Source: a virus. From it: a stretch of DNA of 34,014 nucleotides. The notes beneath the pieces are model-generated. The model was given only the letters and a program-made list of their open reading frames with translations. It was not told where the DNA came from and ran no database searches. Below, piece by piece: positions 3,591 to 24,661 of the stretch (its first letter is position 1; each line of letters begins with the position of its first letter). The stretch spans positions 1 through 34,014 of IMG/VR virus record IMGVR_UViG_3300042922_000402. The stretch is one strand, 5' to 3'. Made by a program: the position numbers and the translations under genes.

Positions 3591-5708
3591 TTGGCGAATA
3601 AGGAGAAGCAAGATAGCGTCAGTTTTGTAAAGGAACGCGCGGAGGAAGGCACAAATTGGGCAATCCTGCGGCAAATTATGATCAACCGGGCGTTCTACTC
3701 CTCCCAACAATGGATTAGCTGGGACCGGACACAGAAGCGCGTGTATGTGCCGGATTTACGTCCTGGTGAAAAGCGCATGACGTTCAATAAGCTGCGCCCG
3801 GCCATCCTCACGCTGCTGTCCAAACTCAGCAAGAACCGCGTAAAGCTGGAGGTAAAGCCGGATACCAACGATACCGAACGCATCGAGGTTGCCAAGGCCG
3901 GGTTGAAATACCTGCATTACCAGTGGGACGCCGACAAGATGGACACCAAATCAAGACGGTTGAAGTTGCTCATGCTAACCGATGGTTGCCCGGCTTTGAA
4001 GGTGTTTGTCGACAAGAACAAAGGCGAGGATATCCCGAAGACAGAGGAATTGCCGGAGGGCGTAGAGAAAGCCCCAGCCAAGACAGGCAAGATATGCACG
4101 TTAGTGTGCGATCAATTCGCTATCAAGGTGGACCCGAACGCCGAAGATGTGACGGAAATCAAATGGGCGGTGGAGGAACGGCCCACGGATGTGGATGAAA
4201 TCCGGGAGCAGTACGGCAAGGAAGTCCAGCCGGAGAGCATCGAACAGCGCAATTCCTATGAGTTCGGATCCATCACCGATAAGCCTCGTAAGTACGGCAA
4301 TCATGCGATGGTCCGTGATTACTGGGAATGGCCTTGTGTGAAGTATCCGAAGGGCAGACGGATTGTCACCGCAGGCGACCAAGAGCTGCTTCGGGAGGAG
4401 AAAGACCCCGGCGAGAATCCATACATCTTCTTCCCGGCGCTTCCGATTCCTGGACGTGCGGTTGCGGATGCCGTAGTCACGGACCTTACAACACCACAGC
4501 GCTCCTACAACATCAAGCGAACTGCAGAGGCTCGAATCCTGGAGGAAATGGGAAATCCCATGTGGTTGAATCCAGGGGCTGATGACGAAGAGCTGGTGAA
4601 TGAAATCGGCAGTATCATCCACTACACACCCAACGAAACATTGAAGCCGGAGCGAGTCAGCGGTATTGAGCCTGGAGCCGGTTGGCAGAACGCTATGGAA
4701 CGCGATGAAGCCGACATGGAGGATATCTCCGGGGCGCATGAGATCAGCCAAGGCGCAACACCTCGCGGGAACAACACGCTAGGCGGTCTACAACTCCAAG
4801 TGGAGCAAGACGAAACAAAATTAGCGCTCCTGGTTCAGTCTTACGAGGACGGTATCAAGATATGGGGCGAGAAAGTCCTCCGGTTGGTGCAAAAGTATTT
4901 CCCGGAAGAACAGCAATTGACCATTGTTGGGGAAACCGGAGAGATCGAGGCCTTTACCTTTACCGGGGCAGACCTGACGGGAAGCGAAGTGGTAGATGTG
5001 GTTCCGGGATCGTCCATGCCTACGCTAAAAGCCGTGCAGGACGAAAAAGTTCTTGCTATGTGGGGAGCCGGAATGTTCACCGATCCCAAGACCGGACAGC
5101 CGGATACACGCCGGGTAGTGCGGATGCTGGGCGAATCCATCGCCTCTCAATACTTTGATGACACCGAACAAGATGAAAACAAGGCACTTATGGAGGTTCG
5201 ACAGTGGCAGCAGTCCTTTGAAGACCCCATGATATTGCAGCAAATCCAGCAATACATGGCACAAATGCAGGCGTATCAAATGTCCGCTCAAGAAGCTGCT
5301 ATGATGGGAGCAGCGCCGGAACAACTTGGAATGATGCCTCCTCAACCTGTACCGGGTTTGCCCATTGTCCGAGACTTTTACGACCATGAAGTACATCTGA
5401 TGGTGCATAACCGGTTCCGCAAATCCCGGGAATATGACGAACTGGACCCGATGCTACAGCAGATTGTAGATGCTCACTGCGATGAACACATCCAGTACAT
5501 TATGGCACCACAGATTCAAGCGCAACAGCAACAAATGATGATGCAGCAACAGCAAACCGAGCAACAAGCACAAGAGGCTGACAAATCCCATCAGAGACAG
5601 ATGGACATGAAGTCCATGGATTTACAAGCCAGATCCGATAGCGAAGCGCTAAAGGCCAATACCGCGCTGCAAACCGCAGCTATGCGACAACCGACAGGCG
5701 TTAGGTGA
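3591..5708 (+). CDS. Portal protein, P22-like
   Basis: 705 residues, close to the P22 portal (about 725) and much longer than most siphovirus portals. It follows terL and precedes a scaffold-like gene, the expected place. Twelve copies would form the ring through which DNA enters and leaves the capsid. The segment around residue 300 (VTDLTTPQRSYNIKRTAEAR) resembles the conserved stem region of this family. From about 641 the chain becomes very rich in glutamine and methionine and then helical, matching the long C-terminal barrel of P22-type portals. Translation starts at TTG 3591 behind GGGGTGAT. Confidence 0.88.
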   Translation: MANKEKQDSVSFVKERAEEGTNWAILRQIMINRAFYSSQQWISWDRTQKRVYVPDLRPGEKRMTFNKLRPAILTLLSKLSKNRVKLEVKPDTNDTERIEVAKAGLKYLHYQWDADKMDTKSRRLKLLMLTDGCPALKVFVDKNKGEDIPKTEELPEGVEKAPAKTGKICTLVCDQFAIKVDPNAEDVTEIKWAVEERPTDVDEIREQYGKEVQPESIEQRNSYEFGSITDKPRKYGNHAMVRDYWEWPCVKYPKGRRIVTAGDQELLREEKDPGENPYIFFPALPIPGRAVADAVVTDLTTPQRSYNIKRTAEARILEEMGNPMWLNPGADDEELVNEIGSIIHYTPNETLKPERVSGIEPGAGWQNAMERDEADMEDISGAHEISQGATPRGNNTLGGLQLQVEQDETKLALLVQSYEDGIKIWGEKVLRLVQKYFPEEQQLTIVGETGEIEAFTFTGADLTGSEVVDVVPGSSMPTLKAVQDEKVLAMWGAGMFTDPKTGQPDTRRVVRMLGESIASQYFDDTEQDENKALMEVRQWQQSFEDPMILQQIQQYMAQMQAYQMSAQEAAMMGAAPEQLGMMPPQPVPGLPIVRDFYDHEVHLMVHNRFRKSREYDELDPMLQQIVDAHCDEHIQYIMAPQIQAQQQQMMMQQQQTEQQAQEADKSHQRQMDMKSMDLQARSDSEALKANTALQTAAMRQPTGVR

Positions 5709-8674: not shown

Positions 8675-9333
8675 CCCAACTCTACACCGCCGGGGAACTG
8701 GCGCAGATGATTATTGAGCAGAACCGGATGGATATCGAGGAATTGGGGAATGCCACATCACAGAAATCCTACATCTACGGGTACATGAACATTGCTCTAA
8801 TGGAACTGGCGAAGATTGCAGATCGCTCCATGTACTCCGATGCTGTCGAGATTGACGCAGATGGATATGTGACCTTTACCCAATCCGGTAGCCCCATCAC
8901 CAATATGTTCGAGCCAAAAACGATTATGATGCCAAATGGTCAGTCCATGAAAAAGCGCACGGCAGACGAAGCGCCTATTGGTTGGTGGCGAGAATCAGCG
9001 CTGCAGCAAGTCCATGTGCGAGGTTTTGGTTTGACCACGCCCGATAAACTTGTTCCGGGATTGTACACTCTCAAATATCTTCGATATCCCAACAAAGTAA
9101 CATTGGATAGCGATTATCCAGATATCGAGCCAACGGGTTACAGAGCATTAATGAACAATGTGTCTATGCAAATCAAGTACAGCAACAACAGTCTTGCCAA
9201 TGCTCAATACTTCGACACTCAATACAGGACATCCATTGGTAACATGGCCCAAGGCTCTATCAGCGCCCGCGGAACCGGCACAACTGGTCAACCATTAGGC
9301 GACAATGACGTGGCGAAAGCGAGGGGGAACTAA
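8671..9333 (+). CDS. Second head-tail adaptor or tail component
   Basis: 220 residues, starting at a GTGA overlap with the previous stop. The N-terminal 60 residues are helical (LYTAGELAQMIIEQNRMDIE, then a YGYMNIALMELAKIA helix), followed by a beta-rich domain (VEIDADGYVTFTQSGSPITN, then WWRESALQQVHVRG) and another helix. This is the same helix-beta-helix plan as the preceding gene. The two together probably form successive rings between portal and tail hub. The name is inferred from fold plan and position. Confidence 0.6.
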   Translation: MTQLYTAGELAQMIIEQNRMDIEELGNATSQKSYIYGYMNIALMELAKIADRSMYSDAVEIDADGYVTFTQSGSPITNMFEPKTIMMPNGQSMKKRTADEAPIGWWRESALQQVHVRGFGLTTPDKLVPGLYTLKYLRYPNKVTLDSDYPDIEPTGYRALMNNVSMQIKYSNNSLANAQYFDTQYRTSIGNMAQGSISARGTGTTGQPLGDNDVAKARGN

Positions 9334-10895
9334 TGGCACAGAACCAATACCAGCCGTTTGAAGTCAAGGTTTCCCCTCTTTTAGGGACAGACACCGCCTC
9401 AGCTCCTACCACACTGGCAAAAGGGCGTTGGCGCTATCAGATCAACGCCTATCAAAATAAAATCGGCTCATCCACAAAACGTCCCGGCAGCGTACCTGTC
9501 ACGAACACAGCGTTGGGTGCATTGATCAAGCACCTAACCGTGTACCGTAGCGGCGCGTCAGAGACGATTCTAGGGGCATCAGGAACCAGCCTATACAAAT
9601 ATGCCTCCAACGCCTGGAGCGCGGCTACAGGGTCATTAACGAGCGCAGACATGCAGGATGTGGACTTTACCAATGCGGACTTGGACAGCCGGAAGCTGAT
9701 TACCGATGGAGGAAGCCTGAAAGAGTACAACGCAACCACTCATACGGTGAGCGCAGTTACCCCAGCTGCAGATGATCCAGACCCGGCACCGGGAAATGCG
9801 CTGGCCGATATCAACGCTAAGGGACCAAAGTACATCTTCACTTATTTCGGTCAGGTGTTTATCTCTGACGGCAAGGATGTATGGTATTACTCCAAGCCCT
9901 ATGAATACGACTACTTCCCGGAAACACAGTTTGAACGGTGGGTTAGACAAAATGACTATTTCACCGGTAATGGCGTGGTGTTTGATAATGTTGTTCTGCT
10001 GCCCATGCGTAAAGGGTGGGGCATCCTCACCGGGAAAGATTTTGATGATATCGAAGGTAACCTGTTTCTGAACTCCAATAATGGCTGTATCGCGCCGCGT
10101 AGCATCCAAAAAGTCACCTACCCGAACGGCTCCCAAACCGTTCTTTTTTTATCCGATGATGGCGTTTATGAAATCTATGACACGGGTTATCTGGACGTAG
10201 GGTCACGGCGCTATTCCACCCGTAGCAAAACGGCGAATATCATCGACTTCACGGGGATCGGCTTTACCGAGGCCGAGAAAGCTGCAGCGGTGAGTTATTA
10301 CGATGCACAGAACTACATGTACATGCTCTGTATCAGCCGCGACACCCAACGCTTGATGATGGGGTTTGATACCCGTAACGGCGAATGGTACCTCTGGACC
10401 AACATCCGAGCTAATGGTTTGGTACGGACGGACGCACTATATTACGCTGGGGAAACGGGACATCTGCATAAGTTTGACACCACGCTCTACAGGGACTGGA
10501 ACGAGGTAGCGAAGACCACCGGTACTATCGTGGATTGGGACTGTTTAACTGATCTCATCGCCTTTGAGAAGTCCGGCTATGCGTCCTACCTGGATTATCT
10601 GGTAGTGTCGTCCAAGCAGTACGATATCCCATCCTCCATTGATGTGGAGATCCGGGCGTTAACCTCCAGCGTGGAGTACGAGAGCGCGGTAAACAACGAG
10701 ATCATGATATGGGGATTGGGTACATGGGGAGTTGCATCATGGTATAACCCGGACTTCTCCGAACTGGTGGGCAAGCCGAAAAGGCTGGTACTCAAAAAAC
10801 GTTCCGTCTATTTCCAAATACGATTCAGAAACAACCGCGACGAGCCGTGTGAGTTGTACGATTATACGGCAATTGGCCGCGTGTCGGGGAGGTAA
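9333..10895 (+). CDS. Tail hub/nozzle protein (P22 gp10-like in position)
   Basis: 520 residues, rich in short beta strands that repeat roughly every 40-50 residues (HLTVYRSGASETILGASG, KYIFTYFGQVFISDGKDVWY, QTVLFLSDDGVYEIY). This pattern fits a beta-propeller-like body, as in the short-tail hub or nozzle of podoviruses such as P22 gp10 and T7 gp12. It lies after two adaptors and directly before the tailspike, and overlaps the preceding gene by one base. Its role would be to close the head and hold the tailspikes. Fold assigned by eye. Confidence 0.7.
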   Translation: MAQNQYQPFEVKVSPLLGTDTASAPTTLAKGRWRYQINAYQNKIGSSTKRPGSVPVTNTALGALIKHLTVYRSGASETILGASGTSLYKYASNAWSAATGSLTSADMQDVDFTNADLDSRKLITDGGSLKEYNATTHTVSAVTPAADDPDPAPGNALADINAKGPKYIFTYFGQVFISDGKDVWYYSKPYEYDYFPETQFERWVRQNDYFTGNGVVFDNVVLLPMRKGWGILTGKDFDDIEGNLFLNSNNGCIAPRSIQKVTYPNGSQTVLFLSDDGVYEIYDTGYLDVGSRRYSTRSKTANIIDFTGIGFTEAEKAAAVSYYDAQNYMYMLCISRDTQRLMMGFDTRNGEWYLWTNIRANGLVRTDALYYAGETGHLHKFDTTLYRDWNEVAKTTGTIVDWDCLTDLIAFEKSGYASYLDYLVVSSKQYDIPSSIDVEIRALTSSVEYESAVNNEIMIWGLGTWGVASWYNPDFSELVGKPKRLVLKKRSVYFQIRFRNNRDEPCELYDYTAIGRVSGR

Positions 10896-12911: not shown

Positions 12912-12918
12912 TTTGTAC

Positions 12919-12947
12919 TTGCTTACAAGGCGGAAATTCCTTATATT
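12919..12947 (+). promoter_or_regulatory. Promoter of the EpsG-like gene
   Basis: TTGCTT at 12919-12924 and TATATT at 12942-12947 are separated by exactly 17 bases. Both lie in the short gap between the tailspike stop and the next start, and a GGTAGGGGAG ribosome site follows. The gene can therefore be expressed apart from late transcription, including in a lysogen. Confidence 0.6.
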
Positions 12948-12975
12948 GTGGTAAAAAGGTAGGGGAGTAATATCG

Positions 12976-14022
12976 ATGGCAGCCTTGGTACCTCATGTAA
13001 CGTTTATATTCGCCTGGCTATTTTCTTTACCCGCACTTAATAAAAAGGTCCCTTTTTACTTGTTTGTTTTCTGGATTTTGCTGCTGTTTTTGTCGTTGCG
13101 CTACGGCTATGGTAATGACTATTGGGCTTATGCCCAGCATCATTACTACATGTACATTGACAAGGCGATTCCGATCTGGCAGCAAAAAGAAATACTATAT
13201 AAATATCTCAACACGCTAGTGCCTAATTTCCAGTGGCTCATTGTGATAATAAGCACGTTCTATATTTACACAATTAGCCGATTGCTTAAAAAGAATCTAA
13301 AAATTAATCAATACTGGTTTGCGGTGTTAATCCTGTTGATCAACCCATATCTATTTTTGGTACATCTGTCCAGCCTACGGCAAACTATTGCGATCTGTTT
13401 TATTACTTTCGCCATCGAGTACGCCATAAAAAGAAAACTCGTGAGGTATGTGCTGCTTGTACTTATTGCATCTGGATTTCACCAAAGCGCCCTTATACTG
13501 CTACCCGCTTACTTTTTTTTGAACGAGAAGAAAATAAGCAAAAAAATGATGATCATTATTTGTAGCTTTTTGGCCGTCCTACTTGCGACTCCGTTATTTG
13601 ATATTATTATAAACAAAGCGTTAGTGTATTTTCCAAAGTACGCTATGTACCTTGAGTGGGGGTTAAAAAACAGTATCAGATCAGCTTTATTGAGCAGCTT
13701 CTTTTTCTTGCTGATCTTATTTAATATTAACAAGCTGGAAGGAAAGGAAATCATCTACGGTAAGTTGGCGTTAATTGGAGTATTGATATCCATCCTGTCT
13801 GTTAAATTAAACATGCTGGGTAGGATAGAGATGTACTTCGGCATATTTTTAATAATTGCTATACCAACGATTTTTTCAAAGTTTAAACCGAACCTAAAGC
13901 CCCTGGCTCCAAAGCAGCTTTTATTCCTGATCGTAATCACAATATATCTGCTAAGGTATGTATCGTTCATCATGAATAACAGTGCCGGCTATGGATTGTA
14001 CCACACCATATTGAGTATGTAA
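12976..14022 (+). CDS. EpsG-family polysaccharide polymerase (Wzy-like), phage-borne
   Basis: 348 residues with about nine or ten membrane segments. It carries the family hallmarks: LRYGYGNDYWAYAQHHYY near residues 41-58, LSSLRQTIAICFITFAIEYA near 132-151 and ASGFHQSALILLPAYFF near 165-181. EpsG/Wzy proteins join repeat units of extracellular polysaccharide at the outer face of the membrane. The gene is more AT-rich than its neighbours, has its own promoter and terminator, and interrupts the structural genes between tailspike and ejection proteins. This is a typical acquired accessory gene; changing the lysogen's surface polymer is the likely purpose. Family call firm, role inferred. Confidence 0.85.
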   Translation: MAALVPHVTFIFAWLFSLPALNKKVPFYLFVFWILLLFLSLRYGYGNDYWAYAQHHYYMYIDKAIPIWQQKEILYKYLNTLVPNFQWLIVIISTFYIYTISRLLKKNLKINQYWFAVLILLINPYLFLVHLSSLRQTIAICFITFAIEYAIKRKLVRYVLLVLIASGFHQSALILLPAYFFLNEKKISKKMMIIICSFLAVLLATPLFDIIINKALVYFPKYAMYLEWGLKNSIRSALLSSFFFLLILFNINKLEGKEIIYGKLALIGVLISILSVKLNMLGRIEMYFGIFLIIAIPTIFSKFKPNLKPLAPKQLLFLIVITIYLLRYVSFIMNNSAGYGLYHTILSM

Positions 14023-14051
14023 GCAATCAGCAGGACCATACCACGCTATAA

Positions 14052-14080
14052 GCCTCGGGGCATCCCGGGGCTATTTTCAT
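14052..14080 (+). terminator. Terminator of the EpsG-like gene
   Basis: GCCTCGGG at 14052-14059 pairs with CCCGGGGC at 14064-14071 (one G-T pair, loop GCAT), followed by TATTTTCATT. It closes the accessory gene as a single transcription unit. Late transcription must pass it to reach the ejection proteins. Confidence 0.75.
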
Positions 14081-14094
14081 TGGGGGGTGAACAC

Positions 14095-15699
14095 ATGGCA
14101 ACCGCAAATAAAAATTTATTTCCAGATCTCAGCAACCCCAACGCCGAATACTACCAAGTGTATAAACCCACCTACAGCACGACACCATCCTATGCTGCAC
14201 CTACATCCTACAGCGGGCAACAATCCTCACTGGGCAACATAACAGGAGTGAGCGCAGACAAGACCAACGCAGCCTATACCGGGTTTGCAGACAACGCTAG
14301 AGCAAGCGGAACAGCCGGATCAGGTGGACAGGTCAACATGTACACAGCTCCAAACAACAACGTGTATAACACCTCCAACATGACACCACAGCAGATTCAT
14401 GCGTTATCGCTGAACAAGGAAAACAACCCGAACGCCGCGGCAATACTCTCCGGTATGGGGTTGGACATCAACGGCAATCAACGCATTAAAAGCCCGTGGG
14501 AGGAAGGCTTGGACCGTCTGCGTGATGGATATGCCCAACGTACCGGGAACACCTACAACTATCAGACAGGGGCGTATACGTCACCTACGGGATCAGGTAG
14601 TGGAAGTGCATACAGTGTTCCGCAGAATGGTGGATACATCCCACCGTCCACGGCAAGTGCGGCGAAAGGCCTGTTTACGGCACCTACATCATCTATGGCA
14701 ACACAGCAAAGCTCCTTACAGCAACAAGCCGCGGCACAAGTAGCTGCTCAACGCGCAGCTATCGCAAGCGCCGTAAACCAGCAATTAAGCAGTTTGAGAG
14801 GAAATATGGATTACACCCAGCAGTTGCAAAATGACAGCAATGTCCTAGAGGATGTAGCATTCCAGCGCAACAATAACCCGTTTAGTGGACGTACTGGTTA
14901 TGCTCAACGTCAAACCTTGCGTGACCGAGGCATTGAAAATACAGCATTGATGCGAGATTACAACACACAAGCGTCCGCAGCGCAGCAGCAACTAGCGGAC
15001 TTTGACGCCAATTCTGCGGCGTTGACGCAACAGATTTTGAATGAACTGACACAGCAACAAATGCAAAACGATATGAATCTTGCTCAATTGACCGGAAATT
15101 ACAACGGCCAGCGCACATTGGCCGGAAGCGCACAAGACGCTAATTTGCAGAATCAACAGTTTAATCAAAATCTCACAAACCGTCAGGCTAATTTGGAGGC
15201 AGCTTTACAGGTGGGCAATCAACAAGGCCGCGTTCTGCAGCCGAAGGATGATTGGTCAAACTTGTACAACCAAGCAGACGCACCACTCAATACCCAAGGG
15301 CAGCAATTGGCCTATCAACAGGCGCGTGATGCGATTGCGGACAAACAGTATCAACAAAAGTTTGACGAGGATGTACGGAGATACGGGTTAGATTATGGCT
15401 TACAACAAGCACAACTGCAAAATCAAATTTCTAACTCAGCGGCAGATAATGCGCGTCAGAATGCTGCGCTTGGATTACAGAGAGAGCAGTTTGAATATGA
15501 GAAAGCTAATCCCCAAACGTCATCCACCACACAAAAAACAACTGACTATAAAACAAACCCGGATTTTGCTTCGGATATTTCCTTTCTTAAAAGTAATCCA
15601 AACGCCGCGGCGCAACTTGATTCTAATGCTGAGGCGTTTATTTCTGCTTACGGCTATGATGGGTATCTCGCACTACGCAAAGCAGCAAACCTTGAATAA
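14095..15699 (+). CDS. Internal virion/DNA-ejection protein, Q/N/A-rich
   Basis: 534 residues from the ATG at 14095, preferred over an in-frame TTG at 14080 because GGGGGGTGA lies at the right distance before it. The first 200 residues are low-complexity (Y, S, T, G, N, P). The rest is long helical sequence rich in Q, A and N (QQQLADFDANSAALTQQ, NGQRTLAGSAQDANLQ), typical of internal core or ejection proteins of short-tailed phages. It lies directly before a 1539-residue internal protein and ends 11 bases before it. No enzymatic motif is seen. Assigned by composition and position. Confidence 0.65.
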   Translation: MATANKNLFPDLSNPNAEYYQVYKPTYSTTPSYAAPTSYSGQQSSLGNITGVSADKTNAAYTGFADNARASGTAGSGGQVNMYTAPNNNVYNTSNMTPQQIHALSLNKENNPNAAAILSGMGLDINGNQRIKSPWEEGLDRLRDGYAQRTGNTYNYQTGAYTSPTGSGSGSAYSVPQNGGYIPPSTASAAKGLFTAPTSSMATQQSSLQQQAAAQVAAQRAAIASAVNQQLSSLRGNMDYTQQLQNDSNVLEDVAFQRNNNPFSGRTGYAQRQTLRDRGIENTALMRDYNTQASAAQQQLADFDANSAALTQQILNELTQQQMQNDMNLAQLTGNYNGQRTLAGSAQDANLQNQQFNQNLTNRQANLEAALQVGNQQGRVLQPKDDWSNLYNQADAPLNTQGQQLAYQQARDAIADKQYQQKFDEDVRRYGLDYGLQQAQLQNQISNSAADNARQNAALGLQREQFEYEKANPQTSSTTQKTTDYKTNPDFASDISFLKSNPNAAAQLDSNAEAFISAYGYDGYLALRKAANLE

Positions 15700-15710
15700 G
15701 GGGGCGCACA

Positions 15711-18700
15711 ATGGGCGTATTCCAGCAGTTACAAACGGGTAATAAAAAATCAGGAGGCGTGTTTTCCCTACTGGAGACGCAGAAGCAAACCAAATGGGAA
15801 GAAGAAAACCAGCGCCAAGAACAGACAGCAAAAGCAGCCGGTGTGCCTAGTGTGGCATCGGCTATTTCTGCTCCACTTGGCGTGACCAGAAAGCAACTGG
15901 AGACGGTGCAACCTATTCAGGTTAGTACGAAAGAAAAGGAAACTGGCGTATTCAGTAAGATCAAATCCGTTCTAGACGCGGCAAACACATTTACCGAATC
16001 CGTAAGCAATGAACTTTCTTTTGGACTGACCAACAAACTTCTACGAAGTAAGGAAGAAGTGCAAGAACAAAAGGATTCCATTGCCGGTAAGGCCGGATCT
16101 ATTGCGGGTTCATTTGCACCAATTGGAGGAGCTTATAAACTTGCCGGAGGACTCACAAAGAGTGCATTGCAGAACGCGCCAAGATTGGTTGATTTGGCAG
16201 TGAAAGGTGGTGTGGCTGGGACATTATACGGCGCAGCTAAGGAAGGCGTAGACGCGGCGCTGGACACACGTATGGATGGATCCCAGGGATTAGGACAACG
16301 CGCTACGAACGTAGCCAAGGAAGCAGCTTTATTTGCGGCAGGAGATGCTGCTTTAGGCGGAGCAGGAATGGCCTTGCGTAAATTCGCGGGAACAAAAATA
16401 GGCGAATCACTTACTAACCTTGTAAAGCGGAAGCAATCAATTGCACCGGAAGTGGAACAGCAGATAACGGAAGCGTTGGCTCCCAAAACAGTCTCTTTAC
16501 CCGGAGTTTTAAAGAACGCCAACCAAGAACAGTACATCAACCGCGTTATGAGCGATATTCGACAAATCGTTACAGAACGGATGACACCACCTTTAGAAAA
16601 TCCCAATGAGCTGGCAAAATGGTTAAAACCACACCTTGGAGAAGCATCCTTAAATGAAGTACGCAAGCTACCCTATGAGGATATGGTAGAGTTAGCAAAC
16701 GAGGTAAGAACAAGCCTCAGTACGGCAGATATCGCGGCTCAGGTAGCCAAAGAGCACGGTTATAACCTAATGGATATCCTAGAAGGGAAACTACCGTCCA
16801 TCAATCAGCGTGTGCAACAATACGCTTCCCGGAGAGCGTATGGGGTATATGATGCCCCAACTTTAAACATTTCCCGTCCAGTCAGCGATACTCCGGTTAT
16901 GCGTCCGTTACGTTTCACTCCTGAAATACCCACTATTCGTAATCAAATTTCTCAGAGTGCTCCACTCGAATCCTTGCGCAACTCCGCTAATGATTTAGGT
17001 GAAGGATTAGGAAACTTCGGCGGCGGTGCAGTGGATGCCATGTATGATGCCCTATGGAAGAAGGTTGTTAAAGGCGATGTGACAGAAGGTGGCTCACCTT
17101 CGGCGTTGCTCCAAGTAGCAAAATTGGTGAGAGACAACGGAGGGTTAAAGACACAGGATGATTTTCGGAGATTGGCCGCTGATGTTACTGCCGCAAGAAA
17201 TAAAGGGTTAACCGGACCAGCCTATCAAAATGAATTAAGGAATGTAGCAACCAAACATATCAGCACAAGCAAATCACCTGCGTCACCTGTACAAGCAAGT
17301 GCTATTCCTCCAAGGACACAAACTAAGAGCAATCCTAATGAACGCGGTTTAGTCACCAATCTTCGGGAATCGGGAAAACTCACACCAGAGGTACAGGCAG
17401 GTTTAGAAGCATCGTCCAAGCGAACTTACACGCCCATCACTAATGCTGCAACAGTAGAACGTGCCAATGCCAAAATTACGAAGGACATGGCTGCTGCAGA
17501 ATCTGCCGTTCTGAACACGCGCGGACGGTTAACGGCGGATAAGGTAGCCACCGGGTTCCGGCTGATTGACGAGTACCAAAAGGCCGGAGACATTAACCGG
17601 GCGGTGAGCATGGCAGAAAATTTGGCTACCAAGCTTACCGAAGCCGGGCAGGCGGTGCAGGCCGCGTCAATCTGGAACCGTTTGACGCCGGAAGGGGCAT
17701 TGGTGGCAGCTACGCGTAAGGTAGAAGCCATCAATCAACGGTTACCCAAAGGCGCTGCAGATGTGGTGCTGACAGAGAAAAACGCCACAGACATTATGAC
17801 CGCAGCGCAGGCTATCCAAATCGCAGGTGTGAGCAAGGAGCGCGCCGGAAATGTAATTGAAATACTGGATAACCTGAAAGCCGGGAAGCAAATCACTGCC
17901 GAAGAAAAGCAGATTGTATCCGACTTCGTCAAAGACGCTCAACAATTTGTGAAGCCGCCGAAACAAACCATTGTACGCGAAGCCAGACCGCCCAAGGAAC
18001 TCGCTGAACCGCGTGTACGGGATAAGGTAGTATCATTTATGGACGAGGCTGAGAAGGCCGCTATGGAGCGCATCAAGGCGCGTAGAAATCGACTCAGTTC
18101 CACGCCCTTTGATGAATGGGCCGATTATGCGATTGTCGGGGCTTCCAAGCTGGTCAAGGGCGGCGTGAAGTTTGCGGATTGGTCCACTGAAATGGTGAAG
18201 ACCTTTGGCGAAGAGATCCGTCCGCAGCTGCAGGCCATCTACCAGAAAGCACAGGAACAGTTGACCATCAATACAAAGCGGATCAGCCAAGAACGAATCA
18301 CCCAGGCGGAACGCATTGCAGAAACTTACTTGAAGAAAAACGAAACAAAATTAGCTACAACTGATATCGATTTTGTCCGAAACATTGCTAAAAACGTATC
18401 GGAACTGTCCGGTGATGCTCAACGCGCAGCATCCCAAGACCTGCAGGCGGTGTTGAATGGGTTTGAACGTGCTGGCGTTGGTCAAAAGTTGTCGTCCGCG
18501 CAATACATTTCCATGTTACTGAATCCTAAGACGCAGATTCGGAACATTGTCGGCAACGAAATGCTGTACCGGATTGAGCGCATCCAGCGCATGGCCGCGA
18601 CACCCATTGACTTTGCGGTATCCAAACTGACAGGTACGGACAGGCAGATCACCTTTAAGCGTGGACCGATGTCCTGGGACAACTTTTTCAGCCCCACCAC

Positions 18701-20330
18701 CAGCTTTATGAAAAGCCTTGGCGAAGGCGCTAAAGCCGGTTGGAGAGGCGTAAACCCGGAAGGGCTGACCACCGCTTATGATATCTCCGGCCAGGCATTT
18801 AAAAGCAAGTTAAACCCTATCACCTACCTAGAAAAGGCGCTTGGCGCAACTATGAAGGGGTTTGATTATGCGGCCTATAACCGTGCTGTAGATGGCCGTT
18901 TGCGGGAAATGGCATACCTGGACGCCATCAATAAAGGTGTCAAAGGCAGACAAGCACAGCAGGCCCATATTGATCGCCATATCGCCAATTTGGACAACAA
19001 CATTGCCGATGTAGCCAAGGAATTCGGACGGTACATCACTTTGCAGGATGAAACCACCTTATCCCGGTCGCTGTCCCGTTTAAAGCGCGGCGCAAACAAA
19101 CTCACCACCGGCTCCGAAAACTTTGGAGTTGGTTCATTGGTCATCCCGTTTGCGAAGACTCCGGCCAATCTCTTGCTTCGGGCCATCGACTACAGCCCTG
19201 CGGGATTCGCCAAGGCCATCACCCAGGGGTATCAAATCCTCCAAAGCCGGAATACCGACTTAACCCGGGCGGATGTAATACAGTCCGTCACCCGGGCATT
19301 ATTCGGTACTGGTCTATCCGGTGTTGGCGTGTGGCTGGCCTCCAAAGGCGCACTACGCGGCGAAACCTCGCCGGATGTGGATGTACGCGAACTGGAAAAG
19401 GCTGCTGGGCTGAGCCAATACCAACTTAACGCATCGGCTGTAGGACGGATGTTTGATGCTATGGTAACGGGGAATCTGTCGGACGTAGACAAGGCCGCAA
19501 AACCTCAACCTGGAGATACCTTCTATCAATACGAATGGGCGCAACCCAGTTCTATTCCGCTGGCGCTGGGGGCCAATATCATCAACGAGCGCCGCCAAGC
19601 TGCCAAGGACCTGCTGAAAACAGGGAAGACAGAAGGGTTGCCGAAACAAGCCACGGACGTCACCTTGGGCGCACTCAATACCCTGTTTAACACATCCGTC
19701 CTGCAAGGCATCCAACAGGCGTTTGAATTTGCGCCAGGGGAGAGCAACAAGGTTAAGGCCTTTGACATCAATGTTTTGAAGCAGATTCCTACCATGGCAA
19801 CACCTTCTTTTATCAGCCAAATCAATCAGATCATGGACAACAAACTCCGGGAGAATTATAGCCCAGACTTCACAGAAGGTTTGCTGAATCCGGCACGTTC
19901 CCGGGTTCCGATTGCAGCTCAAGGCATGGAGCAAAAGGTAGGGACGCTAGGACAGCCTCAGACGCGCTTGGATAATGTGTTTGACGTATTCCTTAACCCC
20001 GCGCAGCGAAGCGTCTACAAGCCAACCAAAGAAGCGCAGATGGTTATGGAACTGCTGTCCGATACGGGCGATGACACTTTAGCACCGCGCCGCGTATCCA
20101 AGTACATCACGGGTACGGACCCAGTCACCCGAGCGCAGAAACGGGTTGACTTGACCACAGAACAATATGTACGCTACCAAACCATTGTCGGACAAGAAGT
20201 CGCCAAGCAGTTGGGCAGAATCCCCGCAAATGCCACCACTCAAACGAAGGTGAAACGCATCAAAGACATTTTGACAGATGCCGGAGAAAAGGGCCGGAAG
20301 GAAATGAAAAAGGAATTGAATCTTAGATAG
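15711..20330 (+). CDS. Giant internal virion protein (ejection protein)
   Basis: 1539 residues, similar in scale to T7 gp16. Near residues 115-225 are glycine/alanine-rich hydrophobic helices (SIAGSFAPIGGAYKLAGG, AGTLYGAAKEGVDAAL, LFAAGDAALGGAGMAL) that could enter membranes. Residues about 920-1230 resemble the large polyvalent-protein region found in very large phage proteins (LNPKTQIRNIVGNEMLYRIE, then VIPFAKTPANLLLRAIDYSP). The last 300 residues are helical with IPT/ITGTDPVT segments. No lytic transglycosylase motif is visible. It probably travels inside the capsid and helps DNA cross the cell envelope. RBS GGGGGC. Confidence 0.72.
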   Translation: MGVFQQLQTGNKKSGGVFSLLETQKQTKWEEENQRQEQTAKAAGVPSVASAISAPLGVTRKQLETVQPIQVSTKEKETGVFSKIKSVLDAANTFTESVSNELSFGLTNKLLRSKEEVQEQKDSIAGKAGSIAGSFAPIGGAYKLAGGLTKSALQNAPRLVDLAVKGGVAGTLYGAAKEGVDAALDTRMDGSQGLGQRATNVAKEAALFAAGDAALGGAGMALRKFAGTKIGESLTNLVKRKQSIAPEVEQQITEALAPKTVSLPGVLKNANQEQYINRVMSDIRQIVTERMTPPLENPNELAKWLKPHLGEASLNEVRKLPYEDMVELANEVRTSLSTADIAAQVAKEHGYNLMDILEGKLPSINQRVQQYASRRAYGVYDAPTLNISRPVSDTPVMRPLRFTPEIPTIRNQISQSAPLESLRNSANDLGEGLGNFGGGAVDAMYDALWKKVVKGDVTEGGSPSALLQVAKLVRDNGGLKTQDDFRRLAADVTAARNKGLTGPAYQNELRNVATKHISTSKSPASPVQASAIPPRTQTKSNPNERGLVTNLRESGKLTPEVQAGLEASSKRTYTPITNAATVERANAKITKDMAAAESAVLNTRGRLTADKVATGFRLIDEYQKAGDINRAVSMAENLATKLTEAGQAVQAASIWNRLTPEGALVAATRKVEAINQRLPKGAADVVLTEKNATDIMTAAQAIQIAGVSKERAGNVIEILDNLKAGKQITAEEKQIVSDFVKDAQQFVKPPKQTIVREARPPKELAEPRVRDKVVSFMDEAEKAAMERIKARRNRLSSTPFDEWADYAIVGASKLVKGGVKFADWSTEMVKTFGEEIRPQLQAIYQKAQEQLTINTKRISQERITQAERIAETYLKKNETKLATTDIDFVRNIAKNVSELSGDAQRAASQDLQAVLNGFERAGVGQKLSSAQYISMLLNPKTQIRNIVGNEMLYRIERIQRMAATPIDFAVSKLTGTDRQITFKRGPMSWDNFFSPTTSFMKSLGEGAKAGWRGVNPEGLTTAYDISGQAFKSKLNPITYLEKALGATMKGFDYAAYNRAVDGRLREMAYLDAINKGVKGRQAQQAHIDRHIANLDNNIADVAKEFGRYITLQDETTLSRSLSRLKRGANKLTTGSENFGVGSLVIPFAKTPANLLLRAIDYSPAGFAKAITQGYQILQSRNTDLTRADVIQSVTRALFGTGLSGVGVWLASKGALRGETSPDVDVRELEKAAGLSQYQLNASAVGRMFDAMVTGNLSDVDKAAKPQPGDTFYQYEWAQPSSIPLALGANIINERRQAAKDLLKTGKTEGLPKQATDVTLGALNTLFNTSVLQGIQQAFEFAPGESNKVKAFDINVLKQIPTMATPSFISQINQIMDNKLRENYSPDFTEGLLNPARSRVPIAAQGMEQKVGTLGQPQTRLDNVFDVFLNPAQRSVYKPTKEAQMVMELLSDTGDDTLAPRRVSKYITGTDPVTRAQKRVDLTTEQYVRYQTIVGQEVAKQLGRIPANATTQTKVKRIKDILTDAGEKGRKEMKKELNLR

Positions 20331-20370: not shown

Positions 20371-20664
20371 ATGATTTCCTATGTAGAATACCGCTATTGT
20401 ATCTGGGACGGCCTGCCAATTGGTGAATCACCAGTGTACCAAACGATCAAGTTTGAACACGGGGTAAAAGTAGCCAACCGATATGCGCGGCGCATGGTCA
20501 CACCGATGAATCATCCGCCTCCAAGGGGTGAGCAACATGACACTATACGAATTCATCTTGGACACAATACACACGCTGATCCGCAACGGAATCACACTCA
20601 GTTCCGGTATAGCGATCCTTGTTTTAGCCTTGAAGAATCGCAAGTTGAAACGGTACATCAATAA
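20371..20664 (+). CDS. Hypothetical protein at the head of the lysis cassette
   Basis: 97 residues behind GGGAGGG. The first 50 residues look like a compact beta-rich small protein (VEYRYCIWDGLPIGESPVYQ). The remaining 45 overlap the next gene by 128 bases and read like the product of a second frame, with many H, Q and R. The gene may once have ended near 20530 and lost its stop. No family is recognised. Confidence 0.5.
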   Translation: MISYVEYRYCIWDGLPIGESPVYQTIKFEHGVKVANRYARRMVTPMNHPPPRGEQHDTIRIHLGHNTHADPQRNHTQFRYSDPCFSLEESQVETVHQ

Positions 20665-21190
20665 CCATTTGCCCCGGCGGTTCCGGGATCCGCAAGAGGA
20701 CGACATAAGGGAAATTTTGCTGAACGTGAAAGCCATATCCCGACATTTGGGGGTTGAAGCATGGAGTGTCGCAAAGAAAGACTCGAACGCAAATATAGTA
20801 AGGAATTCACGGCCCTGTTTGGCGCGTGGATCCCGTGCCCGGTTCATGGCGTTATTCACACGCCGGAAGGGGACAAACCCATCAACATTAAGGAGGAGAA
20901 GACGAATGAGAGAATATCTTAAAAAGCTTGGCCGTACCAAGTTTCAGGCCTTTTTAATTATGACCTTTACCAACATCGCCACTATGATCCTGGTGTTTAC
21001 CGGAACCATAGACATCGATGACGCGGTCAACAAATGGCTACCGGCTATCAACATTACCGCTCAAGTCATCGTAACCTGGCTCTATGTATGGGTAGAGGGT
21101 GGCATTGACAAGGAGGCACAGAAGGCGCAGCAAGGGGGAGGAGTGAACACCGGTGCGGAATCTGACTATACCCCAGGAAGTTTTAAATAA
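20537..21190 (+). CDS. Long membrane protein with the holin nested at its C-terminus
   Basis: 217 residues from ATG 20537, which follows AAGGGGTGAG. Residues 1-35 contain a membrane segment (TLSSGIAILVLALK), then a basic, helical region (REILLNVKAISRHLGVEAW). Codons 75-123 form an arginine-rich linker, then the frame runs straight into the complete holin that starts at 20906. The linker is overlapped in another frame by a separate small gene. Either this is a true long form that could act as an antiholin, or the first gene has lost its own stop. Both starts have good ribosome sites. Confidence 0.5.
   Translation: MTLYEFILDTIHTLIRNGITLSSGIAILVLALKNRKLKRYINNHLPRRFRDPQEDDIREILLNVKAISRHLGVEAWSVAKKDSNANIVRNSRPCLARGSRARFMALFTRRKGTNPSTLRRRRRMREYLKKLGRTKFQAFLIMTFTNIATMILVFTGTIDIDDAVNKWLPAINITAQVIVTWLYVWVEGGIDKEAQKAQQGGGVNTGAESDYTPGSFK
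20761..20922 (+). CDS. Small overlapping lysis-cassette protein, hypothetical
   Basis: 53 residues (MECRKERLERKYSKEF and following), ATG at 20761 after TTGGGGGTTGAAGC. It has a protein-like mid-section, ALFGAWIPCPVHGVIHTPEG, with a Cys-Pro-Val-His pair, and a charged end. It lies entirely inside the frame of the longer gene at 20537 but in another frame, and overlaps the holin start by 17 bases. Its regular composition suggests it is the real gene here and the longer frame is the shadow. Function unknown. Confidence 0.5.
   Translation: MECRKERLERKYSKEFTALFGAWIPCPVHGVIHTPEGDKPINIKEEKTNERIS
20906..21190 (+). CDS. Holin
   Basis: 94 residues with two membrane segments: about 14-33 (FQAFLIMTFTNIATMILVFT) and about 44-65 (WLPAINITAQVIVTWLYVWV), a short loop between them, and a polar, glycine-rich C-terminal tail. 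Size, topology and position directly before the amidase fit a class II-type holin, which makes the membrane lesions that release the endolysin. AGGAGG lies nine bases before the ATG. It overlaps the amidase start by 38 bases. The exact holin family is not named. Confidence 0.78.
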   Translation: MREYLKKLGRTKFQAFLIMTFTNIATMILVFTGTIDIDDAVNKWLPAINITAQVIVTWLYVWVEGGIDKEAQKAQQGGGVNTGAESDYTPGSFK

Positions 21191-21899
21191 AACTGGCGTC
21201 CCGCAGATAATCGATATTACCGATCAGCTTCCGGTCAACAAAAACTATACCTGGGCGCAGCTGGCCGGAACCCGGGATATCAATGACCTGACCACCGTGG
21301 CGTGGCATCATGATGACATCGCAAAATCACTCCGCGCCGGGTGGGATAACATCAGTGTCGCCAAGCGGATTGCTGAGAATCATATTGAATTAACCAAAAA
21401 CGAAAAGAAAGGCGATGCCGGATTCCCCTATCACTTCTGGATCCGCGACGGAAAAATCTATCAATGTAACAACGTCCTAGACCGCACCTACGGCGTTGCC
21501 GGAAATAATGGCTATACAGTACATGTCTGTATCTCCGGGTCATACGCAGGAAAGGACACGCTGGAGGACGCGGACAGACGCGCACTACAGGCCATTACAT
21601 TGACGCTGATGCGAGAGCTACCGCAATACCAAGCTATCAAAGCACACAGCGAATTAAACGCCACCGATTGCCCCGGATACGACTATCAGACGATTCGTAA
21701 TGAAGTCATCAACCTGGATATGAAGATCAAGCAGGAGTCCACCTGGGCCGGGAAAGTGAAACTGGTGAACGAGGTAGCCAACCAGTACAGTTTTATGACC
21801 AATCTCATGAAAGCCGGGGAGTCAGACGGAAATGCACAATGGGCCGCGAATCAACTTTTGGCGGTGAGAGAAATACTGATTGCGCAGAAGCTTCTATAA
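21153..21899 (+). CDS. Endolysin, N-acetylmuramoyl-L-alanine amidase (Amidase_2)
   Basis: 248 residues, starting at GTG 21153 after GGGGGAGGAG. It cleaves the bond between muramic acid and the stem peptide. An Amidase_2 domain covers about residues 45-190. Zinc ligands are visible: H52 or H53 in VAWHHDD, H165 in KAHSELN and C173 in ATDCPGYD. FPYHFWIRDGKIYQCN at about 92-107 is the usual central strand region. The final 55 residues are helical (KLVNEVANQYSFMTNLMK) and probably a cell-wall-binding or dimerising tail. It is the last gene of the late operon. No signal peptide, so export depends on the holin. Confidence 0.92.
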   Translation: MRNLTIPQEVLNKTGVPQIIDITDQLPVNKNYTWAQLAGTRDINDLTTVAWHHDDIAKSLRAGWDNISVAKRIAENHIELTKNEKKGDAGFPYHFWIRDGKIYQCNNVLDRTYGVAGNNGYTVHVCISGSYAGKDTLEDADRRALQAITLTLMRELPQYQAIKAHSELNATDCPGYDYQTIRNEVINLDMKIKQESTWAGKVKLVNEVANQYSFMTNLMKAGESDGNAQWAANQLLAVREILIAQKLL

Positions 21900-21903
21900 A
21901 TAA

Positions 21904-21940
21904 AGAAAAGCCGGGGGTGATGTTACTCATTCCCGGCTAA
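21904..21940 (-). terminator. Terminator for the minus-strand accessory genes (also faces the lysis operon)
   Basis: AGCCGGG at 21909-21915 pairs with CCCGGCT at 21932-21938; two G-T pairs and TGA/TCA extend the stem inward, leaving the loop TGTTAC. On the minus strand the hairpin is followed by TTTTCTTTATTT, a strong terminator. On the plus strand only a weak AATTCTT follows. The stem overlaps the stop codon of the HD-domain gene. Confidence 0.75.
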
Positions 21941-22365
21941 TTCTTGTCTATGCTATTTAAAGCATCTAATGATTTTTTATATCGTTTTAATCTACTAAAA
22001 TCTTGTTCTGTTGGATTGGTAATTCTCGTCAAATCCATATTGTCTTCAATATCCAATATTTTTACTTTCCGAGCGATATCATTTTTCCCTATGCGATCGA
22101 TAAAATCTGCATATACCTCACCTTCTGCTCTTGTTAATGCCATAACTGCATCAATAATTAATGAAGAAAAACCATTTTTGATTAATGTTTCTTTTGTGCA
22201 GTCTGTATCCTCGATAACATCATGTAAAACGGATACAATGCGTTCAATATCATTATCCGCTTTTAACATCAACCTAAGAGGATGTAAGATATAAGGATGT
22301 CCTCCTTTATCAAACTGACCATGATGCATTTTCGTTGCTAACAATATTGCCGTAGTTAGATCCAT
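21937..22365 (-). CDS. HD-domain hydrolase of the small alarmone hydrolase type
   Basis: 142 residues. The HD metal-binding pattern is complete by eye: H14/H15 in KMHHGQFDKGG, H28 in PYILHPLRL, H48-D49 in VLHDVIEDT with E52-D53, and the later KILDIEDNMD segment. This matches the hydrolase part of RelA/SpoT and the stand-alone Mesh1/SAH enzymes, which remove pyrophosphate from (p)ppGpp and related nucleotides. AAAGGAGTGATAAG precedes the ATG. It is the last gene of the minus accessory group. No synthetase or toxin gene is nearby, so it may act against host alarmone signalling or a toxin. Substrate not proven. Confidence 0.75.
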   Translation of the reverse strand: MDLTTAILLATKMHHGQFDKGGHPYILHPLRLMLKADNDIERIVSVLHDVIEDTDCTKETLIKNGFSSLIIDAVMALTRAEGEVYADFIDRIGKNDIARKVKILDIEDNMDLTRITNPTEQDFSRLKRYKKSLDALNSIDKN

Positions 22366-22377
22366 CTTATCACTCCT

Positions 22378-22566
22378 TTACTCATTCCCGGCTTCATTTG
22401 CTATCGCATAACCCATCAGTTTTTTACCTGGATGAATGGAACAGATGTGTTCCCTGAATTTATTGTGGTCTTCTGGTTTGTCCCAATCGATAGTGTATTC
22501 AATTGAAAAATTCTTGGATCTTGGTTTCTTCCCTTCATTCCACCATAATCCATAATTAATTTTCAC
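22378..22566 (-). CDS. Hypothetical accessory protein
   Basis: 62 residues from the GTG at 22566, chosen over the GTG at 22575 because GGGAGTGAT then lies at a normal distance. The product is small and aromatic-rich (YGLWWNEGKKPRSKNF, YTIDWDKPED), with no membrane segment. It ends with AGNE encoded by the repeated CATTCCCGGCT element. Function unknown; it lies between the HD protein and the zinc/Myb-like protein and is probably cotranscribed with them. Confidence 0.55.
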   Translation of the reverse strand: MKINYGLWWNEGKKPRSKNFSIEYTIDWDKPEDHNKFREHICSIHPGKKLMGYAIANEAGNE

Positions 22567-22591
22567 TTGTATCACTCCCTCTCATTCCCGG

Positions 22592-22879
22592 CTACTCCCT
22601 TATACGATTCAATTCTGGCAACAATTTGATGTACCATCTTGACCTTATCGAACTAAAACTTATATTCATTTCTTTTGATATTGTTCTGAATGTCTCGTTT
22701 ATAGGAATTCCATCACCTGTTAACATGCATACTGTATCAATAATCGCGCAATCTTCATCATCTGTGAATATGTGTCTAACTGGTTCGAAATTATCTGATT
22801 TGTAGAATTGTAAATAATGCTTTTCGCAGTAACCCCTTGTAGCAGAATTTATTGTGCACCCTTCATGAACGCACTTCAA
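22592..22879 (-). CDS. Zinc-knuckle plus Myb/SANT-like DNA-binding protein
   Basis: 95 residues, TTG start at 22879 behind GGGGGTG. Residues 3-21 carry C-x4-C-x9-C-x3-H (CVHEGCTINSATRGYCEKH), the small zinc element often found at the start of HNH homing proteins and phage regulators. Residues 35-90 (FTDDEDCAIIDTV ... SFSSIRSRWYIKLLPEL) resemble a Myb/SANT-like helix-turn-helix in spacing and tryptophan placement. No HNH catalytic motif is present. A small DNA-binding regulator is likely; the Myb reading is moderate. Confidence 0.55.
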   Translation of the reverse strand: MKCVHEGCTINSATRGYCEKHYLQFYKSDNFEPVRHIFTDDEDCAIIDTVCMLTGDGIPINETFRTISKEMNISFSSIRSRWYIKLLPELNRIRE

Positions 22880-22931
22880 TCATTACACCCCCTATATCGA
22901 TCCAGTTAGGTGTTTTTTCTTCATCTACCAT
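22863..22931 (-). CDS. Possible 22-residue leader peptide
   Basis: A 22-codon frame starting at ATG 22931, with a good AAGGGAGTGATAGG ribosome site, ends inside the first codons of the zinc/Myb-like gene. It fills the otherwise empty interval and the ribosome site is as good as those of its neighbours. It could couple translation or be a remnant. Nothing in the peptide suggests a function. Confidence 0.3.
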   Translation of the reverse strand: MVDEEKTPNWIDIGGVMIEVRS

Positions 22932-22935
22932 CCTA

Positions 22936-23118
22936 TCACTCCCTTATCTGAACTAATCCATCCATGTAAATATATAAGGTATATTCCCATCCTTGGTGTT
23001 TGTAGGTGTATAGGCAGATTTCTGCTTGGTTGCCGATCCGGCCAAAGTATTTCAGTTCGCCTCGTTCTTGCAGGTAGGCTTTAGCAGCTTCAAGGGATTC
23101 AAATTTACGTTGTCGCAT
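22936..23118 (-). CDS. Hypothetical accessory protein
   Basis: 60 residues, basic at the start (MRQRKFESLEAAKAYLQERG), then a beta-rich segment with many tyrosines (ICLYTYKHQGWEYTLYIYMD). The ATG at 23118 has no clear ribosome site; TATACT lies a few bases upstream, so the message could start very near the ATG. It is the promoter-proximal member of the minus-strand accessory group and borders the likely attachment region. No family is recognised. Confidence 0.55.
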   Translation of the reverse strand: MRQRKFESLEAAKAYLQERGELKYFGRIGNQAEICLYTYKHQGWEYTLYIYMDGLVQIRE

Positions 23119-23221
23119 GATTTCAGTATACTACAACCAAAATAAAGCGAATAGTGGAGGTGAAATTAATACACATAATAAACTATTGATACGGCTAACG
23201 TACTAAAAGTGTAGTAAATAG
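23119..23221. other. Candidate phage attachment region (attP)
   Basis: This 103-base gap lies between the 3' end of the integrase and the accessory genes, where attP is expected if the lysis-side accessory genes and the integrase are at opposite ends of the prophage. It contains ACTATT (23182-23187) with AATAGT (23217-23222) and TACTA (23201-23205) with TAGTA (23212-23216), but no convincing single centre. No core can be named without the bacterial junctions. Confidence 0.35.
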
Positions 23222-24661
23222 TCAAGCGTTAACTTCGATTTCCTCAATTCTCCACGTTTGTCCAACCTTAATTATGGTTATGCGCTTGAATATCTTCTGT
23301 ATCCTTACTTTTTGTTCGATATAACTCCAAGTGTTCCAGTCTTGCTTGAGATTCTTCAATTCCTCCACAATCTCCCCAAGTCTCCGTGTGTCTGTCTTTT
23401 GTTCATGCGGTAAGTCCGCGAGTTGTTGCTCCAGGATATCCACCCTCTGTTTCTCTTCGTCACGCAGTTGCACATAAATGTCAAAGTCAATATTTCCGGA
23501 TGACATGGCCTTGGCTAGTTTCATCTGTTTCTCTTTGGATTTCAGCAATTCTTTTTCAATACGTTTTCTCTCTTTTCCAACATCCGGTCTTTCCTCGTGA
23601 ATTTCTTTGTTCGGGTCAAAAGATTGGAAATCAAAGTGAATAGTGTCAAACACCAGCTTTGTTAGTTTGCGCTCGGATATGGTGGATGCTTCACAGGTTC
23701 CCGGATGCACTTTGCCGCGACAGAAATACAATCGGGTTGGGTTTTGACGTTCATTTTTTAGATTGGTATACCGACCATAGTAAGAGGATCCGCACATGCC
23801 ACACTTGACGATGGTGGAAAACGGAAAATCATAGCTGGATTGGCTCATTGTTTTCTCGCGGCGTCGGTTGATATAATCCTGTACTTTTAAAAAGATATCT
23901 CGTTCTACGATAGGTTCATGTGTGTTTTCGGCAAATATCCGTTGATCTTCTGGCAAGCTTTGCTGTTTCCAGTCGCTCATGCCGATATAAGCCGTGTTTC
24001 TCAATATTGTCGCAATGGTCTTGTGATACCATGTGACACCGCCAAGCGGAGCTGGTATTTGATCTTGCTCTAACCCTACACAAATTTTTATCTTCCCTGT
24101 ACCCATTAAAAATTCCCGAAATATCCTTCGCACAACCTCGGCTTTATCTTCATCGACGACCAGTTTCAAATTTTCCCCGCAGGTATACCCGTACGGCGGT
24201 GTAGGCGTGTTTCTGCCGCCTTGTCTGGCTCTAGCTTGCTGACCCAATATAACTCTCTCCCGGATCTTCTCGCGCTCTGCTTGGGCCATAGAGAGGCGGA
24301 TGGTGTACATCATAAATCCGTCCGGTGTAGAGGTGTCGATATCTTCGGTAATGCTGGCAAACTCGATCCCATTGGGTTTGAACGTCTCCTGCACCATCCT
24401 TAGACCGTCCAGGGTGTTCCGTGTAAGCCGATCCAGCTTCCAGATGACCAGCAGCTGAAACTTCTTATCCCGGGCGTCACGCATCATCTGTTGCAGTTTG
24501 GGACGATTGGTGTTTTTAGCGGAATAGCCATCATCAATATAGGTATCTACCAGTTCATGACCTTCGGATTTAATGTACTGTAAACATTGATTGACCTGTT
24601 CTTCCAAACTGTATACACTCTGCTCCTCTTTACTGATCCGCACATACAACGATGCTTTCAT
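23222..24661 (-). CDS. Large serine recombinase (phage integrase)
   Basis: 479 residues. The catalytic domain (1-145) has Ser10 in YVRISKEEQ and the LDRLTR arginine motif at 76-81. The recombinase domain follows (PPYGYTCGE, then DEDKAEVVRRIFREFL). A zinc ribbon has C287, C290, C314 and C323. A coiled coil is likely at about 355-420. Large serine integrases join attP and attB without host factors and need a directionality factor to excise. AGGAGG precedes the ATG. The gene is divergent from the LytTR-like gene and is transcribed away from the immunity region toward attP. All expected domains are present, so it is probably active. Confidence 0.95.
   Translation of the reverse strand: MKASLYVRISKEEQSVYSLEEQVNQCLQYIKSEGHELVDTYIDDGYSAKNTNRPKLQQMMRDARDKKFQLLVIWKLDRLTRNTLDGLRMVQETFKPNGIEFASITEDIDTSTPDGFMMYTIRLSMAQAEREKIRERVILGQQARARQGGRNTPTPPYGYTCGENLKLVVDEDKAEVVRRIFREFLMGTGKIKICVGLEQDQIPAPLGGVTWYHKTIATILRNTAYIGMSDWKQQSLPEDQRIFAENTHEPIVERDIFLKVQDYINRRREKTMSQSSYDFPFSTIVKCGMCGSSYYGRYTNLKNERQNPTRLYFCRGKVHPGTCEASTISERKLTKLVFDTIHFDFQSFDPNKEIHEERPDVGKERKRIEKELLKSKEKQMKLAKAMSSGNIDFDIYVQLRDEEKQRVDILEQQLADLPHEQKTDTRRLGEIVEELKNLKQDWNTWSYIEQKVRIQKIFKRITIIKVGQTWRIEEIEVNA

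Follow-up and report, generated by a model that had tools for sequence, protein, structure and literature searches.

Why should a temperate phage carry an intact polysaccharide polymerase gene within its virion cluster, directly behind the gene for its tailspike? The question is raised by a virus record of 34,014 bases (IMGVR_UViG_3300042922_000402), which was analysed over its whole length and is referred to here as the window; the features that bear on it are collected in Table 1. Prophage conversion of surface polymers is known mainly from Gram-negative hosts, and the first-pass annotation of this locus had proposed a surface-conversion module, paired with the tailspike, in a Gram-positive host.

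The phage and its polymerase

Relatives of the major capsid protein are found at 29 loci in IMG/VR and also in Paenibacillus lycopersici, P. oryzisoli and one Paenibacillus MAG, and the host is therefore probably a member of the Paenibacillaceae, a Paenibacillus-type soil bacterium. A large serine recombinase marks the phage as temperate. The recombinase gene is internal to the record (20528-24661 region), where it adjoins the lysis genes, and is not at a record end, a gene order suggesting that the record represents phage DNA in excised or virion form and not a prophage in its integrated state. Also beside the lysis genes (21937-22365, minus strand) is a 142-aa protein that by eye resembles an HD-type (p)ppGpp hydrolase, with no Pfam family matched at E 0.001.

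Table 1. Features of the window around the polymerase gene, and the recombinase gene
Feature	Position	Strand	Basis or remark
Conserved virion-cluster gene upstream of tailspike; marker of related phages	9333-10895	+	Comparison of relatives
Tailspike, 670 aa	10899-12911	+	Anchor (residues ~1-151) conserved; beta-helix head (~154-545) variable
Tailspike head (from residue ~150) and slot gene, exchanged as a block in sister phage L092	11343-14049	+	DNA comparison
64-bp gap holding the claimed promoter	12912-12975	+	Promoter no better than chance
Ribosome-binding site AGGGGAG, 8 nt before the EpsG ATG	12961-12967	+	Sequence
EpsG-family (PF14897) multi-membrane polysaccharide polymerase, 348 aa, intact	12976-14022	+	ORF scan, Pfam
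Terminator hairpin AGCCTCGGGGCATCCCGGGGCT	14051-14072	+	Scan: 9 pairs, 7 GC; common to sister phage L092
Conserved virion-cluster gene, possible ejection protein	14080-15699	+	Synteny; L092 homologue starts at equivalent of 14095
Virion-cluster gene, 1539 aa, possible ejection protein	15711-20330	+	Synteny
Large serine recombinase	23222-24661	-	Pfam Resolvase, Recombinase, Zn_ribbon_recom

The polymerase matches the Pfam EpsG family over nearly the full profile (residues 27-337 on profile positions 3-317 of 326; E 9.5e-44, 150.3 bits against a cut-off of 30.1), and it keeps every residue that is invariant across 18 aligned homologues, including G46, R135, H169, Y179, R283 and F288. Simple hydropathy gives nine hydrophobic segments, as in a multi-spanning membrane protein. 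By sequence the protein is thus a member of the EpsG polymerase family, with a predicted activity on lipid-linked repeat units, and its description as a complete EpsG/Wzy-like membrane protein stands. Neither PHROGs nor NCBIfam gave a match for it, no EpsG relative was confirmed in a single-protein search of IMG/VR, and a sequence search of solved structures returned no relative of either the polymerase or the tailspike. Two human-gut 'phage' records with EpsG-like matches (MT835960 and MT839756) were set aside as looking by eye like bacterial DNA, and a reading of the gene as a defence system was rejected, with no match in PADLOC.

The Paenibacillaceae homologues that we aligned share 21-26% overall identity with the phage protein, and those examined sit in polysaccharide clusters, flanked by glycosyltransferases and Wzx-type flippases. 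The phage gene stands alone, accompanied by neither, and its product could therefore act only on repeat units supplied by the host. An intact polymerase gene within a temperate phage is also what is seen in lysogenic-conversion polymerases of the D3 Wzy-beta and Acinetobacter Wzy-Ph kind.

Expression signals and composition

The EpsG gene begins 64 bp after the tailspike gene, and the promoter that had been assigned to it in this gap (TTGCTT-17-TATATT) matches 8 of 12 consensus bases, which falls below the threshold of our promoter scan and was not listed by it; when the 100 bp upstream are shuffled, 61% of the copies reach a score of 8. The claim of an own promoter therefore has to be given up, and the motif is unusable as evidence for independent expression. 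The terminator fared better, the scan having found the hairpin both in the window and in L092. Hairpins follow the slot gene, that is, the gene at the equivalent position behind the tailspike, not only in these two phages but also in the prophages L117, L118, L120 and L121. The gaps flanking the EpsG gene, of 64 bp and 72 bp, leave room for a tiny ORF at most, as judged in a check for a companion inhibitor that covered these flanks.

The interval between tailspike and EpsG contains no terminator, and EpsG is codirectional with the late genes; with no promoter above chance, the gene may be silent in lysogens. This arrangement would suit a late lytic function, in which the polymerase keeps progeny from being trapped, by altering the polymer on cells that are dying or nearby, and has no role in the lysogen. 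Late expression would, however, leave little time for a surface polymer to be rebuilt, and the hairpins behind the slot in six phages look like a means of separating it from the late genes downstream; we regard this explanation as unlikely.

The G+C content is 0.36-0.38 at the EpsG gene and about 0.5 on the downstream flank. Such a composition, together with the finding of no EpsG in other phages of the group, is compatible with a passenger gene, taken from a host polysaccharide locus along with the low-G+C head of the tailspike and functionless for the phage. The intact frame and the retention of all invariant residues argue against this, as does the finding that in several relatives the slot is occupied by surface-polymer enzymes from unrelated families, and we consider it very unlikely. 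Among the features by which a moron is recognized, the locus thus has a terminator, an atypical composition and replacement or absence at the same place in relatives, and lacks a promoter distinguishable from chance.

Exchange and content of the slot behind the tailspike

A beta-helix domain was found in the tailspike by Pfam, and an AlphaFold2 model of medium confidence (mean pLDDT 58, higher in the helix region) resembles polysaccharide epimerases, lyases and the HK620 tailspike. No relative of the tailspike head was confirmed in the viral scan, and a genome search with the head gave weak partial matches only. The annotation had placed EpsG between the tailspike and ejection genes; the tailspike and the virion cluster are confirmed, whereas 'ejection' is plausible by position for two downstream genes that are syntenic in relatives, family searches having given no convincing match for the first (14080-15699) and none for the second.

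Related phages were collected by means of the marker gene upstream of the tailspike. Among them L092, which is one of the two nearest to the window, has the same backbone; identity is 95% for the marker and 75% for the gene downstream of the slot. The similarity in DNA breaks off at window position 11342, within the tailspike gene and past the anchor, and is regained at 14050, shortly ahead of the terminator; in this sister phage a single block comprising spike head and slot gene has therefore been replaced. What L092 carries instead is a spike whose head is of SGNH/GDSL type (76.6 bits) and, in the slot, an SGNH/GDSL hydrolase anchored in the membrane (75.2 bits), so that both members of the replacement block belong to the same enzyme superfamily. 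The position behind the tailspike is a cargo slot.

Other relatives fill the slot differently. Four Paenibacillaceae prophages have Wzy-type proteins there: that of L120 matches Wzy_C at 52 bits and that of L117 at 31.6 bits, just under the cut-off of 31.7, while those of L118 and L121, each with nine transmembrane segments and no useful Pfam match, are assigned to this type provisionally, from the gene context of their homologues. Homologues of the L118 protein (32-36% identity) lie in a chromosomal cluster, and in the one case where Pfam was used to check the surroundings (L131) a glycosyltransferase and a hexapeptide transferase lie next to it; the closest homologue of the L121 protein (44%) comes after Wzz and a kinase-like ATPase, and the L121 protein itself matches the IctB model weakly (27.9 bits). 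Two viral contigs carry, behind a beta-helix tailspike, an Acyl_transf_3 protein (L163; 111 bits) and a hexapeptide transferase (L165; Hexapep). In relatives with short fibres the slot is mostly occupied by small proteins or by secreted Cu_amine_oxidN1 'stalk' proteins, some of which carry a trypsin-like domain as a fusion. Sampling across the whole order brought in no further phage backbone, and loci L094-L096 were set aside, their match being limited to a stretch of the tail fibre.

To compare the two kinds of relative, near-identical intervals were merged and phages were then classed as having a tailspike (tail protein of at least 470 aa) or a short fibre (any shorter protein). A surface-polymer enzyme occupies the slot in 8/15 tailspike phages and in 1/16 short-fibre phages (Fisher p=0.006, uncorrected for phylogeny; p=0.012 without the window), in intervals delimited by hand and with some slot proteins classed by eye; given the small sample and uncorrected kinship as well, the enrichment is supportive, not conclusive. 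The pairing is not strict: seven of the 15 tailspike phages have no surface-polymer enzyme in the slot, and at two Acinetobacter loci (L089 and L090) EpsG proteins that are 59% identical follow spike heads that are unrelated.

Several further observations concern these intervals. A short-fibre phage (L158 and L167, 10817-12100) has a 234-aa SGNH hydrolase in the slot, which may be cargo or may belong to the receptor-binding machinery. Relatives keep stalk proteins, proteases of trypsin type, or both fused together, beside the tailspike, whereas in the window a secreted Cu_amine_oxidN1 stalk protein (25610-26482, minus strand) and a trypsin-like protease (28314-28985, plus strand) are located in the lysogeny/early region. 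The protease has a further match (70 bits), to the protease portion of PADLOC RT-Protease_XI models, which probably reflects no more than the common protease fold. Genes of about 220 aa, by eye of homing-endonuclease type, are inserted just upstream of the tailspike in L163 (10668-11333; no Pfam match) and L160 (11024-11686).

The content of the slot bears on a further explanation, that the polymerase is an auxiliary metabolic gene which helps the host to survive (in biofilms, or under desiccation, cold or salt) by raising or altering exopolysaccharide, and which has the tailspike as an incidental neighbour. The one viral EpsG with Firmicutes affinity has been read in this manner (PMC10405475), and the Paenibacillaceae homologues are located in polysaccharide operons. 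However, the same slot also holds acyltransferases and SGNH hydrolases, enriched behind tailspikes, and a single polymerase would not be expected to increase the yield of polymer; we therefore think this explanation improbable.

Proposed receptor conversion and its precedents

The reading that we favour, at a probability of about 60%, is that EpsG is a receptor-conversion polymerase, carried as phage cargo in a slot linked to the tailspike, and that it alters the linkage of the lysogen's polysaccharide such that the phage's own tailspike no longer fits. The exopolysaccharide or capsule pathway of the host would make and flip lipid-linked repeat units, which the polymerase would use in the lysogen, joining them by a linkage other than the host's own. 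The beta-helix tailspike would bind, and probably cleave, the original polymer, and the altered polymer would no longer fit it; we propose that the same phage is thereby kept from infecting the lysogen again, and that released particles would escape trapping on the converted polymer. What we infer here is that the gene is expressed in the lysogen, what its product acts on, that the linkage changes and that adsorption is blocked; the intact lone polymerase of a temperate phage, the block exchange in L092, the enzymes in the slots of relatives, the hairpins and the precedents in Acinetobacter and D3 all speak for receptor conversion, and the chance-level promoter and the exceptions to pairing speak against it. 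The paired surface-conversion module of the annotation accordingly survives in a looser form, upheld by the one-block replacement and by the recurrence of unrelated surface-polymer enzymes, but not as a strict pairing.

That unrelated sugar-coat enzymes occupy the same place in relatives suggests an interchangeable cassette that recognizes a polymer and then changes it, in which tailspike head and modifying enzyme would travel together. A bolder version, which we offer tentatively and think somewhat more apt to fail than to hold, is that temperate phages of the Paenibacillaceae have a dedicated slot at which the tailspike head and an enzyme of matched chemistry are swapped as one cassette, a depolymerase-type spike with a polymerase and an esterase-headed spike with a membrane esterase; were it true, each change of receptor would bring its own receptor-altering enzyme. 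A fixed slot of this kind in Gram-positive phages, holding polymerases, acyltransferases and esterases, would mean that receptor recognition and receptor alteration evolve as one unit, and the slot would offer an easy way to locate genes for receptor modification and to form a guess at the target of a tailspike. The recurrent tailspike-modifier cassette in Gram-positive phages appears to be new within the literature searched, most subscription journals lying outside it. The individual polymerase cannot be called largely undescribed, as the annotation had it, given the published Acinetobacter prophages with EpsG-family Wzy proteins (PMC9241936, PMC13228068) and the published viral EpsG, and its kind is therefore already known.

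The Acinetobacter baumannii Wzy1Ph is an EpsG-family prophage protein of 347 aa, similar in length to ours, that changes the linkage of the capsule (PMC9241936, PMC13228068). It occurs in 12 different prophages, of which all but one have tailspike depolymerase domains that are over 80% identical, and in two prophages with wzy2Ph the common sequence reaches into the C-terminus of the depolymerase (PMC13228068). In both systems, as in the window, the polymerase gene stands alone and the temperate phage that bears it also has a tailspike of depolymerase kind, and protection from related phages has been proposed for them; they differ in acting on a Gram-negative capsule, with structures solved, and in belonging to another phage lineage, whereas the window represents a Paenibacillaceae-type phage in which the function is predicted and in whose relatives other enzyme classes fill the slot. 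In phage D3, infection leads to superinfection resistance, attributed to its polymerase together with an inhibitor (PMC4815439). The D3 unit (Wzy-beta, Iap and a third component; PMC4815439) is comparable to the conversion proposed here in that its polymerase changes the linkage between units and its lysogens resist superinfection; it is, however, a three-gene unit that includes an inhibitor of the host polymerase and acts on O antigen, while the window has a single gene of another polymerase family with no inhibitor seen.

The viral EpsG from Arctic cryopeg brine likewise lies in a phage genome and clusters with Firmicutes EpsG; it was read as an auxiliary exopolysaccharide gene, and a link to a tailspike is not described in the accessible part of the report (PMC10405475). 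Closer in arrangement is Acinetobacter phage MD-2021a (L086), where a T7-type fibre (a sub-threshold match) is followed by a 152-aa gene and then by EpsG at 110 bits; there and in L089 and L090 EpsG is the first or second gene after a T7-type tail fibre or spike, a layout similar to that of the window, although MD-2021a is an unrelated phage. In L089 a gene that looks transposase-like by eye (3935-4864) lies between tail fibre and EpsG. Finally, acetyl esterase activity has been shown for two SGNH tail fibres from temperate phages of Klebsiella, and these receptor-binding proteins resemble L092 in their SGNH head and in that acyl modification is a prophage trait; the portion of that paper available (PMC13123978) does not describe a fixed slot in which tailspike and modifier go together.
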